Assembly (NCBI GenBank): GCA_017405115.1 | Contig: JAFRBA010000194.1 | Coordinates: forward strand, 1 to 13,048 | Source of the DNA: Kiritimatiellia bacterium | GTDB lineage: Bacteria; Verrucomicrobiota; Kiritimatiellia; RFP12; UBA1067 | Direction: 5' to 3' | DNA: 13,048 nucleotides | Shown: piece by piece, positions 2,499-11,959 of the stretch | How positions within the stretch are numbered: position 1 is the stretch's first letter | Layout of the letters: each line of letters begins with the position of its first letter | Translations under genes and position numbers: made by a program | The notes under the pieces: generated by a model | What the model saw: only the letters and a program-made list of their open reading frames with translations | Database searches by the model: none | What the model was told of the DNA's origin: nothing

Positions 2499-2622
2499 AA
2501 AACGTTGCTATGGTTTGTGTGGCTTTAGAGGCTGAGGCGTGCAAGTCCATGGCCGGGGTTGCGAGCTTGCGTTTTATCAGCGGGCGATTGCCGGAGAAAA
2601 GGCGTTTTGCTATAATGCACGC
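2416..2622. other. Intergenic stretch before the nitroreductase
   Basis: Apart from the possible small ORF (2412-2498) and the promoter at 2588-2616, nothing is recognised here. Base composition returns from AT-rich to GC-rich at about 2530, which marks the right edge of the low-GC block. No inverted repeat, transposase remnant or obvious terminator is visible. Confidence 0.5.
2588..2616 (+). promoter_or_regulatory. Near-consensus sigma70-type promoter, leaderless
   Basis: TTGCCG at 2588-2593, a 17-base spacer and TATAAT at 2611-2616 with an upstream TGC (extended -10). Only six bases (GCACGC) separate the -10 box from the ATG at 2623. Transcription should therefore begin at or next to the A of the start codon. 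No Shine-Dalgarno lies in the intervening bases. Confidence 0.8.
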
Positions 2623-3249
2623 ATGAAAAACTATATCACAACGTTGTTCGCCGCAGCAGGCTTCGCCATGAGCGGCCTTGCGGAACCGATGAAACTCCCG
2701 GCACCTGACATGGAAGGTGGCCTTACTGTAATGCAGGCCCTGAAGGCCAGGCATTCGGAAAGGGCGTTCGCCGAAACCGAGCTCTCGGCAAAGGAGCTGT
2801 CGGGGCTCCTTTGGGCGGCGAACGGCTTCAACCGTCCAGACAGGCGTACGAACGCGACTGGATTGAACAAGCAGACGATCGTCCTCTACGTATGCATGAA
2901 GTCGGGCGCATACCGCTATGACGCGAAGGCGAACGAACTCGTCAAGGTGAGCGACGAGGATTTGCGTCCGGCCGTCGCGGGGCATCAGGCGTTCGCGGCG
3001 ACGGCGCCGGTGTCGGTCGTTGTAGCGGCGGACACGAGCGACCCGATCTACAAGGGCGCGCGGGGCACGCTTTCGTGCTATGACGCGGGAATCGTATCCG
3101 GCAACATCTACCTCTACTGCGCCGCGCACAATCTCGCCACGGTCTGCCGCGCCTCGATGGACCGCGAGAAGCTGAAGAAGGGGCTCGGGCTCGCGGACAG
3201 CATTACCTTGCACCTCAACCACCCGGTCGGGCACTTTATGGCAAAATAA
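2623..3249 (+). CDS. Exported nitroreductase-family protein (FMN-dependent)
   Basis: A 208-residue member of the nitroreductase family (PF00881), whose members use FMN to transfer hydride to nitro, quinone or related substrates. Residues 1-20 look like a signal peptide ending A-E. Residues 36-47 (A-L-K-A-R-H-S-E-R) match the Arg-rich FMN phosphate-binding start, and 62-73 (L-L-W-A-A-N-G-F-N-R-P-D) the next conserved block. A-A-H-N-L-A-T-V, near 167-174, is the usual late block before a glycine-containing end. Length and layout fit the small exported group seen in Bacteroidales and relatives. The start at 2623 is preferred over an in-frame ATG at 2539 because it follows the promoter at leaderless distance and gives a clean signal peptide. 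The physiological substrate cannot be told. It seems to be a single-gene unit; the kinase starts 35 bases on. Confidence 0.88.
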   Translation: MKNYITTLFAAAGFAMSGLAEPMKLPAPDMEGGLTVMQALKARHSERAFAETELSAKELSGLLWAANGFNRPDRRTNATGLNKQTIVLYVCMKSGAYRYDAKANELVKVSDEDLRPAVAGHQAFAATAPVSVVVAADTSDPIYKGARGTLSCYDAGIVSGNIYLYCAAHNLATVCRASMDREKLKKGLGLADSITLHLNHPVGHFMAK

Positions 3250-3284: not shown

Positions 3285-4262
3285 ATGCTTGAGACTGGAA
3301 GGCATGTCGGGTCGTATCGCGTCGTGCGCCTGCTCGGCAAGGGCGGGATGGCCGAAGTCTACGAAGTCGAGAACGAACGGCTCGGGGCGCGCTTTGCGCT
3401 GAAGGCGTTCACGCTCGACCACGGCGAGGTCGACTTCCTTCGCAAGCGCTTTCAGGTCGAGGGACGGCTTCTCGCGCGCCTGTCTCATCCGCGCATCGTT
3501 CGCGTCTACGACATGGACGTCGACGAGGGGACGGGGCTCCCGTACTACGTCATGGACCTCGTCCTCGACGAGTCGGGGCGTCCGCGCTCTCTTAGGGACG
3601 CGCTCGAGAGCGGCGAGGCGACCGAGGAGATGGCGGCGAACTGGTACGAAGACCTTCGCGAAGGGCTGGAGTACATCCATGCGATGGGCGTAGTGCACCG
3701 CGACGTGACGCTGGACAACGTGCTTGTCGGCTCTGACGGACGGGCGGTCCTCTCGGACTTCGGGGTGTCGAAGATTCTGCCGCGCGACCTGCGCGCCGAG
3801 CTCAAGGAGACCGTCAACACGATTGTGCGGGGCGGAAAGCCTCTTATGGGCAAGTCGTTCTACATCGCGCCAGAAGTCGCGGACGGGGGCGACGAGTCTG
3901 CGGCGTCCGACTGCTATTCGCTCGGAGTGATGATGCTGAGGCTTCTCACGCAGGTGTGGTATGCGCCCGGCGTGAAGCTGGACGACCTGCTCCTTCCGCT
4001 CGACCCGCAGTGGCGTCGCATACTTCCGCTGCTCCTTGCCGAAAAGCCGACGGACAGGCGGATGCCCGCCTGGCACGGACCGGCGAAGAATCCGTTCCGT
4101 TCGATTGTCACGGCGGGCGGCGGCGAAAACGACGTCATGCTGCGCATCCGGTTCCCGCACTGGGTTCTGGGCGGGATCATGCTCTTTGCGGCCATGGCGT
4201 TTGCGGCGGTCGCAATCTACGCGGCATACGAGCGCGGACAGCGCAAGATGGCGGAGCGGTAA
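3285..4262 (+). CDS. Hanks-type serine/threonine protein kinase with C-terminal membrane anchor
   Basis: A 325-residue kinase. Visible elements are the glycine loop G-K-G-G-M-A-E-V-Y (18-26), ATP-binding Lys40, helix-C Glu59, H-R-D (138-140) with Asn145, D-F-G (158-160) and A-P-E (195-197). The lysine usual at HRDxK is Thr142, but catalytic Asp and metal-binding Asn are kept, so it is probably active. The region after ~260 is short. Residues ~293-314 form one membrane helix, placing the kinase on the cytoplasmic side. There is no PASTA or other sensor. A short SD-like AGGGA lies 10 bases before the ATG. The reading frame stops at TAA (4260-4262) but then stays open for 14 codons to a TGA that would overlap the sigma factor start (ATGA), so the kinase may have lost a short charged tail. 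It lies next to an ECF-like sigma factor, its likely partner. Confidence 0.93.
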   Translation: MLETGRHVGSYRVVRLLGKGGMAEVYEVENERLGARFALKAFTLDHGEVDFLRKRFQVEGRLLARLSHPRIVRVYDMDVDEGTGLPYYVMDLVLDESGRPRSLRDALESGEATEEMAANWYEDLREGLEYIHAMGVVHRDVTLDNVLVGSDGRAVLSDFGVSKILPRDLRAELKETVNTIVRGGKPLMGKSFYIAPEVADGGDESAASDCYSLGVMMLRLLTQVWYAPGVKLDDLLLPLDPQWRRILPLLLAEKPTDRRMPAWHGPAKNPFRSIVTAGGGENDVMLRIRFPHWVLGGIMLFAAMAFAAVAIYAAYERGQRKMAER

Positions 4263-4303
4263 CTGCGGGAGCTGCGCGAGAGGATTTCGGTCATGGAGGC
4301 GAA

Positions 4304-4906
4304 ATGAGCGCGTTTCCAGAGACTCCGGCGACGCTTCTCGTGAAGCTCGCCGCCCAGGTGACTGGCGAGGACGAGGCGAACTGGGTGCGCTTTGCGGACC
4401 TGTACGTTCCGGCCATACGCGAGTTTGCGCGGCATCGCGGCGACGGACGCGACGTGGACGACGTTGTGCAGGAGGTGCTTGCAGGGCTCGTGCGAGTGTT
4501 TCGCGGCAACAAGTTTTCCGTTCGCGAGGGCAAGGGGAACTTTCGCGCGTATCTCGCCAAGATGATCCGCAACCAGCTCTACATGGCGTATCGGCGCGAA
4601 AAGGCGCGGGGGCTTGGGCTCAACGTGCCCCTGGACGAGGCGGAGCCCGTCGTTCCGGCGGACAGCGTCACGGCGGCGATAGACGCGGAATGGGCGGCGG
4701 CGCGGCACCGTGCTGCGGTTGAGCACGTCCTCGCGAAGACGCTTGTCTCGGACCTCAACAAGCGCCTCTACCGCGCGTATGTCGTCGAAGAGCGGCCGAT
4801 AGACGAGGTCGCGCGCGAGTTCGGGGTGACGCGCAACCAGGTGAGCCAGGCCAAGACGCGCATCGGCCGTATGGTCGCCGCGATAGAGGGTTTTGTCGAA
4901 GAGTGA
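4304..4906 (+). CDS. ECF-like sigma-70 family RNA polymerase sigma factor
   Basis: A 200-residue sigma factor with region 2 (residues ~25-100) and region 4 (~140-190) only, as in the ECF group. Region 2.2 holds D-V-D-D-V-V-Q-E (50-57), equivalent to the DAED motif that contacts the polymerase beta' subunit. F-R-A-Y-L-A-K-M-I-R-N (80-90) leads into regions 2.3-2.4, which open the -10 element. The C-terminal helix-turn-helix includes I-D-E-V-A-R-E-F-G-V-T-R-N-Q-V, which reads the -35. A GGAGG at 4295-4299 lies 4 bases before the ATG. There is no anti-sigma gene next to it. The upstream kinase takes that position, which suggests control by phosphorylation as described for other kinase-linked ECF factors. 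The acidic 2.2 motif is intact, unlike in the kinase-dependent EcfP of Vibrio. Confidence 0.9.
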   Translation: MSAFPETPATLLVKLAAQVTGEDEANWVRFADLYVPAIREFARHRGDGRDVDDVVQEVLAGLVRVFRGNKFSVREGKGNFRAYLAKMIRNQLYMAYRREKARGLGLNVPLDEAEPVVPADSVTAAIDAEWAAARHRAAVEHVLAKTLVSDLNKRLYRAYVVEERPIDEVAREFGVTRNQVSQAKTRIGRMVAAIEGFVEE

Positions 4907-4973: not shown

Positions 4974-5663
4974 CTATCGTGCAGTTGTTTCATCAAATGG
5001 GAGAGGTGGATGGTTGCCGCGCTTGTGTGCGTGGCGGTCGTGCTGGGCATCTACCCCGCCGACAGGACGGTGTGGTGCGTCGAGATGGTGTGGGCGGTCG
5101 GGCTGTGGGCGATTCTACTCCTTACGCGCAGGAAGTTCCGCTTCTCACCGCTGGCCTACCTCTGCTTCTTCGTCTGGACGGTTCTCCAGCTTGTCGGTGC
5201 ACACTACACGTTCGAACTCGTGCCGATGGACTGGCTCAAGGAACCGCTTGGACTTGTCCGCAATCCCTACGACCGCATCGCGCACTTCGCGGTCGGCTGG
5301 TTTGCGTTTCCGCTCGCCGAACTCTTCTTCCGCAAGGGCTGGGTGAAGTCCGCTGGCTTTGCCGCGTTCTTCGCCGTGATGTCGACTGTCGCAATGGCCG
5401 GAATCTGGGAGCTCGTCGAGTGGATCTACGCGGTCGTTGACGGCGGCGAGGCGGGTGCGGCGTTCCTCGGCTCGCAGGGCGACGTATGGGACGCGCAGAA
5501 GGACATCCTCTGCGACACCCTAGGCGCGATCTGCTCTTCGGGGCTTTTCCTATGGCGCGTCCGAAGTTCACCACCTCGCCGCGCATCGGCATCGCCTATA
5601 CCTCTCCGCGCGACCAGAAGCGCAAGTGGCGGTTCGCGGCCGCGACGCCGTAGCATTGGATAA
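4911..5663 (+). CDS. yjdF: YjdF/DUF2238 membrane protein with a Vsr-derived N-terminus and a frame-shifted C-terminus
   Basis: The body (residues ~30-216 from ATG 4911) is a full YjdF/DUF2238 protein with about six membrane helices. Family marks include G-A-H-Y-T-F (96-101), R-N-P-Y-D-R-I-A-H-F (118-127), W-E-L-V-E-W (166-171) and L-G-S-Q-G-D-V-W-D (186-194). The function of the family is unknown. Residues 1-21 do not belong to it: they match the start of Vsr endonucleases. Residues ~217-250 are an Arg/Ser/Pro-rich tail, produced because the frame runs through mpg sequence in the wrong phase. Translation may begin at ATG 4911, four bases after the sigma factor stop, giving a fusion. It could also begin at ATG 5010, which has its own GGGAGAGG at 4999-5006. 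The second gives a normal YjdF N-terminus and is somewhat more likely on Shine-Dalgarno grounds. Confidence 0.85.
   Translation: MDTISREQRPKVMSAIHSRDTLSCSCFIKWERWMVAALVCVAVVLGIYPADRTVWCVEMVWAVGLWAILLLTRRKFRFSPLAYLCFFVWTVLQLVGAHYTFELVPMDWLKEPLGLVRNPYDRIAHFAVGWFAFPLAELFFRKGWVKSAGFAAFFAVMSTVAMAGIWELVEWIYAVVDGGEAGAAFLGSQGDVWDAQKDILCDTLGAICSSGLFLWRVRSSPPRRASASPIPLRATRSASGGSRPRRRSIG
5554..5653 (+). pseudogene. mpg: 3' remnant of an mpg (3-methyladenine DNA glycosylase) gene
   Basis: Bases 5555-5653 align without gaps to 10826-10924, the end of the intact mpg in this window. By my count 86 of 99 bases match, as do 25 of 32 residues, and both end at the same stop. Conserved peptide pieces are A-R-P-K-F, S-P-R-I-G-I-A-Y, S-P-R-D-Q and R-K-W-R-F. 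Most differences are conservative or synonymous, so the fragment was once translated in this frame. The rest of the gene is missing; the sequence upstream is the end of yjdF, read in another frame. Confidence 0.85.
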
Positions 5664-5671
5664 TGCGAAAA

Positions 5672-5680
5672 TGATATAAT
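5672..5680 (+). promoter_or_regulatory. Extended -10 promoter, leaderless
   Basis: TGATATAAT (extended -10, TATAAT at 5675-5680) is followed by GTCGGC and then the ATG at 5687. The six-base spacing equals that at 2623 and 10961. No good -35 box is seen 16-18 bases upstream, which the TGn extension may compensate. It lies just after the mpg remnant stop. Confidence 0.75.
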
Positions 5681-5686
5681 GTCGGC

Positions 5687-6694
5687 ATGAAAATGGAGAT
5701 AGGAGTTGGCCTTGCGGCGCTGTCGGCTCTGGCGGCGAAGGGGAAGGACTTCAACCGTGCGGAGCTGAACGCGATGCTCGACAAGCTCGCCGCCTCGCCA
5801 GAGCCGAATAATGTCATTTCCATAATGGCGGCAACTGGCTATGTGAGGGTGATGCCGCGCCCTGAGAAATTTGAATATGTCTGCAAGAAGTGCGGAACGC
5901 ACACCGTCTATCCGAAGAACAGCAAGCAGATGGCGAACTCTCTCGCACGTCGCCGCGACGAGGCGGCGAGCCTCAGGGCGCTCGGGCTGGACATCACGCT
6001 CGACGAAACGGTCCTCTGCTCGAAGTGCAAGTCGGCGGAGGAACTTGGCCTGCCGACGGCGGGAACGATTGCAGGCAGACCCAAAAGGGAGGAAGACGCC
6101 GGGGATGTTCCGTGGAGCATTGGCGACAAGGTCAAGATAATCGAGGCCTATGACTCTTGGTGTCGCGTCTTGCCTGTTTCAAGCAATGCATGGGTTAGCG
6201 CAGAGTATATATCGGAGAAGGGGAAGATACTAGGGGACAGCGTGAACATTCGATTGGCTCCGAGTCTGGACGCGACAGTGATTGGTTCGTTGTTCAAAGC
6301 GGATCCGCCGCTGAAACGGCTCCCGGCGAAACCGGGCGATCCAGCGGGCTGGGTTTGCGTAGAGTGGCCGCCCGAGAATGACCGCGCCTGGGGTTACAGC
6401 GTACGGACAAGGTTTCTGGGCGATCTGTCGTATGACGAAAAGGATTTTGTCGCCCCATGCCGCATCGACAGGCTGTCCTGGGTGATCAACGGGAAAAGGA
6501 TCGTCGCAATGGATGATGACGCACGAATACTGAAGGCGTTTTTGTCCGGCGAGAAGACGATCAAAGACATACTCGGCCGAGATATGCTCCTCAAAAGAGA
6601 GCTGCCACGTCTGCGCAAGCTGCTGGAGCCTGGCGAATCCGATCCTCTGGCGCCTGCACCTTTGGCGCCTGTAGAAGTCGAGGTTGACATTTGA
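5687..6694 (+). CDS. Zinc-ribbon and SH3-like domain protein, partner of the radical SAM enzyme
   Basis: A 335-residue cytoplasmic-looking protein with no signal peptide. Residues 1-40 form a helical start. Residues 61-116 hold C66-K-K-C69 and C111-S-K-C114, a four-cysteine zinc-ribbon-like site with a long helical insert. Residues 144-176 and 183-245 look like bacterial SH3 folds: the second has G-D-S-V-N-I-R-L-A-P-S with a later V-I-G-S-L, the usual SH3b signature. The last ~80 residues contain a short helical region and a Pro/Ala-rich acidic end. Its TGA overlaps the TTG start of the radical SAM gene (TTGA), so the two are translated together. The protein could bind or present a substrate to that enzyme, or be the substrate; neither is shown. 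It is not a clear PqqD-type recognition domain. Transcription should be leaderless from 5687. Confidence 0.8.
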   Translation: MKMEIGVGLAALSALAAKGKDFNRAELNAMLDKLAASPEPNNVISIMAATGYVRVMPRPEKFEYVCKKCGTHTVYPKNSKQMANSLARRRDEAASLRALGLDITLDETVLCSKCKSAEELGLPTAGTIAGRPKREEDAGDVPWSIGDKVKIIEAYDSWCRVLPVSSNAWVSAEYISEKGKILGDSVNIRLAPSLDATVIGSLFKADPPLKRLPAKPGDPAGWVCVEWPPENDRAWGYSVRTRFLGDLSYDEKDFVAPCRIDRLSWVINGKRIVAMDDDARILKAFLSGEKTIKDILGRDMLLKRELPRLRKLLEPGESDPLAPAPLAPVEVEVDI

Positions 6695-10408: not shown

Positions 10409-10924
10409 ATGAGAAGATTGACTACAAAAGACTATGCGGTTGATGCGGTGACGGCCGCGAAGGCGCTATTGGGCGCGTGGCTGTGCCGGCGGCTCGACGA
10501 CGGCACGGTCATGCGGCGGCGCATCACCGAGACGGAGGCATACTGCGGCGAGGGGGACACGGCCTGCCATGCGCACAAGGGGAGGACGCCGCGGACGGAC
10601 GTGATGTACTCGCCGGGCGGCTGCGCGTATGTCTATCTCTGCTACGGGATGCATGAAATGCTGAACGTCGTGACGGGGCGCGAAGGGCGCCCCGAAGCGG
10701 TGCTTATCCGCGGCGTAGAGGGCGCGGAAGGTCCGGGGCGTCTCACGAAGGCGCTTCACATCGACCGCTCGCTCAACCGCGAAGATCTCGTTTCGTCGCA
10801 ACGCCTCTGGATCGAGAGCGACGGGGCGCGTCCGAAGTTCGCCGCCTCGCCGCGCATCGGCATCGCCTACGCCTCCCCGCGCGACCAGCGCCGCAAGTGG
10901 CGATTCTCCGCCGTGTCGCCGTAG
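10409..10924 (+). CDS. mpg: DNA-3-methyladenine glycosylase (MPG/AAG family)
   Basis: A 171-residue base-excision repair enzyme that removes alkylated purines, somewhat shorter than the usual 180-200. Family blocks are R-R-I-T-E-T-E-A-Y-C-G (with the catalytic Glu of the ETEAY motif), H-A-H-K-G-R-T-P-R-T-D-V-M-Y, A-Y-V-Y-L-C-Y-G-M-H, L-N-V-V-T-G and R-P-E-A-V-L-I-R. Later blocks are G-P-G-R-L-T-K-A-L and I-D-R-S-L-N. The end (S-P-R-I-G-I-A-Y) is complete. ATG 10409 is chosen because the family domain begins immediately after it. An in-frame ATG at 10337 lies inside the repeat and would add 24 unrelated residues. No good Shine-Dalgarno precedes it. The inverted repeat ends six bases before the ATG, so expression is likely affected by it. 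The last 99 bases have a diverged second copy at 5555-5653. Confidence 0.92.
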   Translation: MRRLTTKDYAVDAVTAAKALLGAWLCRRLDDGTVMRRRITETEAYCGEGDTACHAHKGRTPRTDVMYSPGGCAYVYLCYGMHEMLNVVTGREGRPEAVLIRGVEGAEGPGRLTKALHIDRSLNREDLVSSQRLWIESDGARPKFAASPRIGIAYASPRDQRRKWRFSAVSP

Positions 10925-10945: not shown

Positions 10946-10954
10946 TGCTATAAT
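10946..10954 (+). promoter_or_regulatory. Extended -10 promoter, leaderless
   Basis: TGCTATAAT (TATAAT at 10949-10954) followed by GCGTGC and ATG at 10961. The stretch from TTTTGC to the ATG differs from that at 2605-2625 in only two bases. The -35 region is weak (TGGCGA at 10925-10930 at best). No Shine-Dalgarno is present. Confidence 0.78.
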
Positions 10955-10960
10955 GCGTGC

Positions 10961-11959
10961 ATGGAAAACAAGGTAATTCTGCGTGACGGGGTCTTTGTCC
11001 ATGAAGCAGAAGCCCTTTGTCGGGAACTTGAACAGGCGGGCGTGCCTTTTGAACTGTGCCAGGTGTCGAAGGAAGGCGCGGGGATAGTCGAGTCCCATCG
11101 GAACAACTGGTCGACTGCCCTTGGAACGGTAGTGAACTACTTCAACCAGGGAGGCCTTGGAGTCTATCTGCGCATACTGGTGTTGCCGGAGGATCTAGAC
11201 CGGGCGAACGTAGCGCTTGCACCGAAGTCAACCAGATTCCATATGAGGTTCAATAGAAGAAAGTTGGTGCGGCTAGTGCTTTGGGGAATCGTCGCCGCGC
11301 TATTGGCGTGGGGCGGCGCGGCGCTTGCTATACGCCTCCTGTCGAACGGCCGCGTATTCGATTCCGAGTCGATTGCCGCGCTTCCTCGTCTGCGCGCGGG
11401 CGTGGTGCTCGGCTGCCGCAAGACGTTTCCCAACGGACTTTCCAACCTCTACTTTACGCGGCGTATCGCGGCGGCGGCGGAGCTCTACAAGGCGGGGAAG
11501 GTGGACTGCCTCATCGTGAGCGGCGACAACCACGTCAAGACATACGACGAGGCGTCCGACATGAAGTCGTCGCTTGTGGAGGCGGGCGTTCCCGAGGCGC
11601 AGATCGTCTGCGACTACGCGGGTTTCCGCACGCTCGACACGGTCGTGCGGGCGAAGAAGGTGTTCGGACTCGACTCGTTTGTAATCGTCTCGCAGTCGGA
11701 CCATGTTCGCCGCGCCGTGTTCACCGCGCGCGGCTTCGGATGCGATGCCTACGGCTACGCGGCGCAGGACGTGAACGGACGCTACTCCATAAAGACGACC
11801 ATCCGCGAGCAGCTCGCCAAGATCGCTGCCGTGCTCGATGTTATTTTCCGTCGCAGTCCCAAGTTCCTCGGCCCGCGCGAGCCGCTGCCTGGCGACAAGA
11901 CGCTAGAGCTGCCAGTGGCAGAGCACGGAGACGAACAACGATGCGGGCGTTTCGGTTGA
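10961..11959 (+). CDS. sanA: SanA/YdcF-like DUF218 membrane protein with extra N-terminal domain
   Basis: A 332-residue protein. Residues ~97-125 hold a basic segment and one membrane helix. Residues 138-265 are a DUF218 domain of SanA type: R-A-G-V-V-L-G-C, then I-V-S-G-D-N, G-V-P-E-A-Q-I-V-C-D-Y-A-G-F-R-T-L-D, V-R-A-K-K-V-F-G and V-S-Q-S-D-H. In Escherichia coli SanA affects the envelope permeability barrier; its chemistry is unclear. The first ~94 residues are extra and resemble a DUF2007-type domain (V-I-L-R-D-G, E-A-x-x-L-C-R-E-L-E-Q-A-G-V-P-F and a late L-P-E-D-L-D-R-A). An internal ATG at 11243 would give a conventional SanA but has no Shine-Dalgarno, so the long form, starting at the leaderless promoter, is preferred. 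The C-terminal 40 residues are unstructured. Confidence 0.88.
   Translation: MENKVILRDGVFVHEAEALCRELEQAGVPFELCQVSKEGAGIVESHRNNWSTALGTVVNYFNQGGLGVYLRILVLPEDLDRANVALAPKSTRFHMRFNRRKLVRLVLWGIVAALLAWGGAALAIRLLSNGRVFDSESIAALPRLRAGVVLGCRKTFPNGLSNLYFTRRIAAAAELYKAGKVDCLIVSGDNHVKTYDEASDMKSSLVEAGVPEAQIVCDYAGFRTLDTVVRAKKVFGLDSFVIVSQSDHVRRAVFTARGFGCDAYGYAAQDVNGRYSIKTTIREQLAKIAAVLDVIFRRSPKFLGPREPLPGDKTLELPVAEHGDEQRCGRFG

Follow-up and report, generated by a model that had tools for sequence, protein, structure and literature searches.

The stretch of DNA analysed here, referred to as the window, comprises 13,048 nucleotides from a Kiritimatiellia bacterium and contains three matches to TATAAT-N6-ATG, at 2611, 5675 and 10949, all on the + strand. 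TGn stands directly before TATAAT in each of them (3/3), forming an extended -10 box, and an open gene begins at each of the three ATGs, encoding a nitroreductase (2623), an SH3-domain protein (5687) and a DUF218 protein (10961). The features concerned are the following:

2588..2593, + strand: weak -35-like hexamer TTGCCG, 17 bp 5' of the -10 box (sequence)
2608..2616, + strand: site 1, extended -10 box TGC-TATAAT (motif match)
2617..2622, + strand: site 1, 6-base discriminator GCACGC, whose last C would be position -1
2623..3249, + strand: nitroreductase-family gene, its ATG being the putative mRNA 5' end (PF00881; L001, 86% identical in amino acids, has the same start and -10 spacing)
5672..5680, + strand: site 2, extended -10 box TGA-TATAAT (motif match)
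5681..5686, + strand: site 2, 6-base discriminator GTCGGC
5687..6694, + strand: gene for an SH3-domain protein, one of a multi-copy family, putatively leaderless (PF08239; homologues with TGGTATAAT-N6-ATG)
10946..10954, + strand: site 3, extended -10 box TGC-TATAAT (motif match)
10955..10960, + strand: site 3, 6-base discriminator GCGTGC
10961..11959, + strand: gene for an N-terminally extended DUF218 protein, putatively leaderless (PF02698)

The initial annotation had reported TGnTATAAT, six bases and ATG at these positions, and all three are exact matches; 200 dinucleotide shuffles of the window give a mean of 0.01 TATAAT-N6-ATG, and no shuffle contains three. The pattern TGNTATAATGYNNGCATG is found exactly at 2608, 5672 and 10946, and allowing up to three mismatches adds no further match in the window. 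The lack of a Shine-Dalgarno (SD) sequence at the three sites is likewise confirmed, none being found between the -10 box and the ATG, and ordinary SD sites precede other genes of the window, e.g., those at 1723, 4304 and 7881. Regarding the -35 element, site 1 has only the weak TTGCCG at 17 bp, and sites 2 and 3 have no recognisable -35 at 17-18 bp. At two of the three sites, a same-strand gene ends just 23 and 36 bp upstream.

Some other features of the window can be mentioned. The DUF218 protein carries 94 additional N-terminal residues (10961-11242). The DUF218 homologue of the relative G093 (L093) starts with MRFNRRKLVRL and has its own TGATATAAT-N6-ATG, and a homologue of the extra part in G082 (L190) displays TGGTATAAT, a leader and an AAGGAG core, and the window gene looks like a gene fusion that brought its own promoter. 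The 3' ends of a methylpurine-DNA glycosylase gene and of the DUF2238 gene are near-copies of each other (5553-5653 vs. 10824-10924), with mostly 7-10 matching bases in every 10 along the stretch, which hints at a duplication or a gene remnant. A Ser/Thr protein kinase gene is followed by a gene for a sigma-70 region 2 protein (3285-4906), possibly a signalling pair.

Genome-wide counts were obtained from relatives, with G001 (its nitroreductase being 86% identical to that of the window) and G093 (94% identical over residues 93-325 of the window's DUF218 protein) standing for the window's genome, and with the reversed motif as control. TATAATN{0,20}ATG has 370 matches in G001 vs. 62 for the reversed control. 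In 58 sampled genomes from the genus of G093, pooled, TATAAT-N6/7/8-ATG occurs 6723 times vs. 618 for the reversed control, and the N=6-8 count exceeds three times the genome's own control in 55/58, the three remaining genomes being G086, G250 and G052. Spacing N=5 is near control (357 vs. 238) and N=7 is commonest with 2817 matches, N=8 being about as frequent as N=6. A genome-wide count at N=6 had been put forward with the initial annotation as a check, and it came out strongly positive in these relatives, with 1913 matches vs. 122 for the reversed control over the 58 genomes. The distance of exactly six bases holds for the three window sites (3/3), but relatives use a band from 6 to 8, with N=6 at its lower edge; as a fixed rule, N=6 is rejected. 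TATAAT alone of its 20 anagrams peaks at N=6-9, 32 matches coming from the G001 sample and 25 from the first half of that of G093; the next anagram, ATAATT (12 and 5, respectively), is TATAAT moved by one base and overlapping it.

Of the 56 genomes sampled in the family of G001, 28 show a ratio to control of at least 5 together with at least 20 matches, and the ratio is below 3 in 16. Across the phylum, only 10/145 sampled genomes, a sample that includes G001 and G014, both of the family of G001, reach these two thresholds, and the median ratio is 1.62. The trait is therefore strong in the genus and patchy around it, the patchiness within the family counting against the leaderless reading. The systematic promoter-start fusion that had been envisaged for the lineage is supported in relatives, as a set of promoters, probably leaderless, that extends across the lineage.

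Regarding the base just 5' of the ATG, it is C in 29/33 N=6/N=7 sites of G093, in 12/13 N=7 sites of G001 and in 84% of the 149 typed N=6 sites of the genus. Together with the A of the ATG, this C makes a pyrimidine-purine (YR) step, which is given as the usual initiator in the accessible text of PMC4782308. At N=8 in G093, A precedes the ATG in 5/7 sites, three of which have C/A at 7/8 and the remaining two pyrimidine/A at 6/7, and none of the six N=9 sites of G001 has C before the ATG, which speaks against the leaderless reading, although a leader of one or two bases would permit it. The most informative control is a calibration set drawn from TGnTATAAT outside called genes and with no ATG at N5-9. 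Among these promoters, the YR step lies at 7/8 in 33/52 and at 6/7 in 11 in G001, vs. at 6/7 in 22/46 and at 7/8 in 14 in G093 (Fisher p 0.0014), and the N=6 share of N=6-8 matches is 27/166 in G001 vs. 73/224 in G093 (p 0.0003). The placement of the ATG shifts between G001 and G093 in the same way as the YR step. The A of the ATG seems to fall where the polymerase of the lineage starts, and this suggests that the distance from -10 box to start of an organism's polymerase is readable from its genome. For the E. coli polymerase, the position 7 bp past the -10 element is described as preferred, 8 and 9 being possible (PMC5730371, accessible portion).

Gene starts were taken from a home-made gene caller, and a gene was classed as -10-adjacent when TAnnnT with at most one mismatch to TATAAT stands at N=6-9 before an ATG, the class being defined with ATG only; a comparison of its start codons with those of SD genes would be circular for that reason and is not used. 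Such genes number 41/553 in the G001 sample and 65/539 in the G093 sample, counts that include a background of about 1-3 matches per position, and 2/84 and 2/89 in the low-signal genomes G003 and G005, with samples of just 97 and 114 kb. Leaderless promoters probably stand before 7-12% of the sampled genes of G001 and G093. An SD core in -18..-5 is found at 0/41 (G001) and 1/65 (G093) -10-adjacent starts, partly because the -10 box occupies the same stretch. TGn precedes TATAAT in 41/47 (G001) and 49/59 (G093) sites, and TTG occurs at 17-18 bp in 13/59 G093 sites and 1/47 G001 sites. The anti-SD GGATCACCTCCTTT was matched, by 16S tail pattern, in 4/10 genomes searched.

With regard to gene neighbourhood, 16 of the -10-adjacent genes in the G093 sample have a divergent neighbour upstream and 13 follow a same-strand gene at less than 40 bp, vs. 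13 and 177 of the SD genes (p 3e-9); the corresponding numbers in G001 are 5 and 12 vs. 19 and 186 (p 0.024). The idea that operon-internal genes use SD sites thus holds as a lean in both samples, but two window sites themselves lie 23 and 36 bp behind a gene, and the -10-adjacent genes so close to a same-strand gene upstream (under 40 bp; 12/41 in G001, 13/65 in G093) count against the leaderless reading.

Homologues of the window genes can be found with either kind of start. The Met of the nitroreductase is kept in L001, and that of the SH3 protein is kept in homologues, its relatives having 335-337 aa at 100% coverage; four of the 120 matches listed for it are named Kiritimatiellae bacterium. 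This SH3-domain family has several matches per genome in G093, G062, G253, G073 and G078, some presumably leaderless and some leadered. Thirty SH3 loci were compared, of which 11 lack N-terminus coverage and two pairs represent the same copy, leaving 17 copies. Among these, TGGTATAAT-N6-ATG stands at the homologous Met in 6/17 (L199, L200, L214, L215, L216, L223), one (L210) has TGGTATGAT-N7-ATG three residues upstream of the homologous Met, seven (L198, L201, L202, L205, L222, L224, L225) have an SD-type core before a near-N-terminal start, and three (L203, L206, L226) show neither the -10-ATG form nor an SD core near the N-terminus. Likewise, 24 nitroreductase loci were compared, and 17 remain after setting aside three without N-terminus coverage and four repeats of another locus. 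Of these, L001 shows N=6, and L239 and L240 (38-40% identical) show N=7; an SD-type core is present in 12, and two have neither form. The leadered nitroreductases L003 and L005 (repeated as L235 and L237) carry TGGTATAAT followed by ATGCGCC, with an A at the expected initiator place and a leader with GGAGG 3' of that A. Since L001 has the putatively leaderless form and L003 and L005 are leadered, one gene family has the same promoter type with and without a leader, and homologues switch between the -10-adjacent form and putative SD-bearing leaders.

It could be supposed that the promoter is real but that translation starts at a downstream SD-preceded codon, the adjacent ATG lying in a short leader. 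An in-frame SD-preceded start 15-90 nt downstream is indeed present in 11/41 G001 and 9/65 G093 genes, and in one SH3 homologue group several members carry a GTG at residue +10 that is preceded by an SD-like core. These rates are, however, at or barely above the random-codon control (0.20 and 0.14, respectively), G001 exceeding chance slightly. Homology in the nitroreductase and SH3 families starts at the adjacent Met, and the enrichment at N=6-9 concerns ATG; GTG/TTG have no such peak in G093, and in G001 a slight one at most. This explanation is therefore improbable. Still less credible is that the block serves as a translation signal or as a regulator-binding site, with ATGC-NN-GCAT as operator, instead of a promoter start. 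The palindrome noticed earlier is present in 2/3 window sites, but its frequency in relatives is at chance level, with 8/150 listed N=6 sites in the family (5.6 expected from base usage) and 0/149 in the genus (5.4 expected). L001 keeps the -10 box and the spacing without the palindrome, and TGnTATAAT with its initiator also occurs without a nearby ATG; the palindrome as an operator is rejected. A GY at the start of the spacer, found in 28/149 N=6 sites of relatives, is not general either. Base-composition chance or a single spread repeat, with which the three genomes at or below three times control would fit, is the most remote explanation, since TATAAT anagrams other than the overlapping ATAATT do not peak, site flanks differ from one another and composition does not account for the N=5/N=6 edge.

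The window sites are thus very likely extended -10 promoters of the sigma-70 type joined directly to coding sequence and giving leaderless mRNA. This is supported by the enrichment with its abrupt lower limit, by the initiator base and TGn, and by the one-base co-shift between two genomes and the leader/leaderless alternation, all well established as sequence patterns. A TGn-TATAAT promoter, presumably recognised by a sigma-70-type factor, would abut the coding sequence, and RNA polymerase would start 7 or 8 bases past the -10 box, at a pyrimidine/A step that is usually C/A, the starting A being the first base of the ATG. With transcription starting on that A, the mRNA would have no leader, or a leader of one or two bases. 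Translation would then follow the leaderless route, the ribosome and initiator tRNA presumably entering on the 5'-terminal AUG, and genes deeper in operons would mostly use SD sites. The proposal that the mRNAs begin at the ATG itself, which the enrichment in relatives supports, is one that we infer for a band of spacings from 6 to 8 and not for a fixed six.

A further proposal, for which we see the chances as evenly balanced, is that start codons track the polymerase: the distance from -10 box to start would differ by one base between relatives, with the ATG moved along, and homologues would pass in both directions between leaderless and SD-leadered forms without losing the extended -10 box or the pyrimidine/A initiator. 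Whether TG follows the initiating A would then set the translation mode. Homologous genes with the same promoter type, with or without a leader, offer a natural comparison, and start codons in the lineage could be corrected from DNA alone.

Akkermansia muciniphila belongs to the same phylum as Kiritimatiellae but to a different class. A literature search, with most subscription journals outside it, found no description of leaderless genes in Kiritimatiellae. In the accessible parts of the two papers, Kiritimatiellae are named in the anti-SD table of PMC10783764, and Verrucomicrobi is not mentioned in PMC5397173. Neither Verrucomicrobi, Planctomycet nor Akkermansia occurs in the main text of PMC3160421, where TA-led leaderless genes are described, as far as the accessible portion goes, in Actinobacteria and Deinococcus-Thermus (Zheng et al., 2011). 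These genes share with those studied here TANNNT/TATAAT about 12 bp upstream, the lack of a leader (presumed here), a -10-like box whose short, fixed spacing to the start codon exceeds control expectation, and the presence of SD-led genes alongside, whereas here most sites carry TGn, and both the initiator step and the spacing lent themselves to calibration. By Cappable-seq of A. muciniphila, 10% of high-confidence transcription start sites lie at annotated gene starts, with a YR initiator, according to the available text (PMC4782308); leaderless transcripts were thus measured there, and are inferred from sequence here. In Deinococcus-Thermus, a -10 motif adjacent to open reading frames is described, in the accessible part of PMC12340547, as serving as a promoter and working without a -35. 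The distance of about 6-7 bp before the open reading frame is common to both. In Deinococcus-Thermus, the same text gives TANNNT, most often TACACT, before nearly one third of genes, unlike here, where TATAAT with TGn stands before 41/553 and 65/539 sampled genes. Other bacteria thus already show this arrangement, which in this lineage is unusually clean, and well-supported leaderless gene expression is extended to a little-studied lineage. The lineage itself is new, and so are the TATAAT-based extended -10 box, a start-site calibration drawn from the sequences themselves and the way in which homologues alternate between the two forms.
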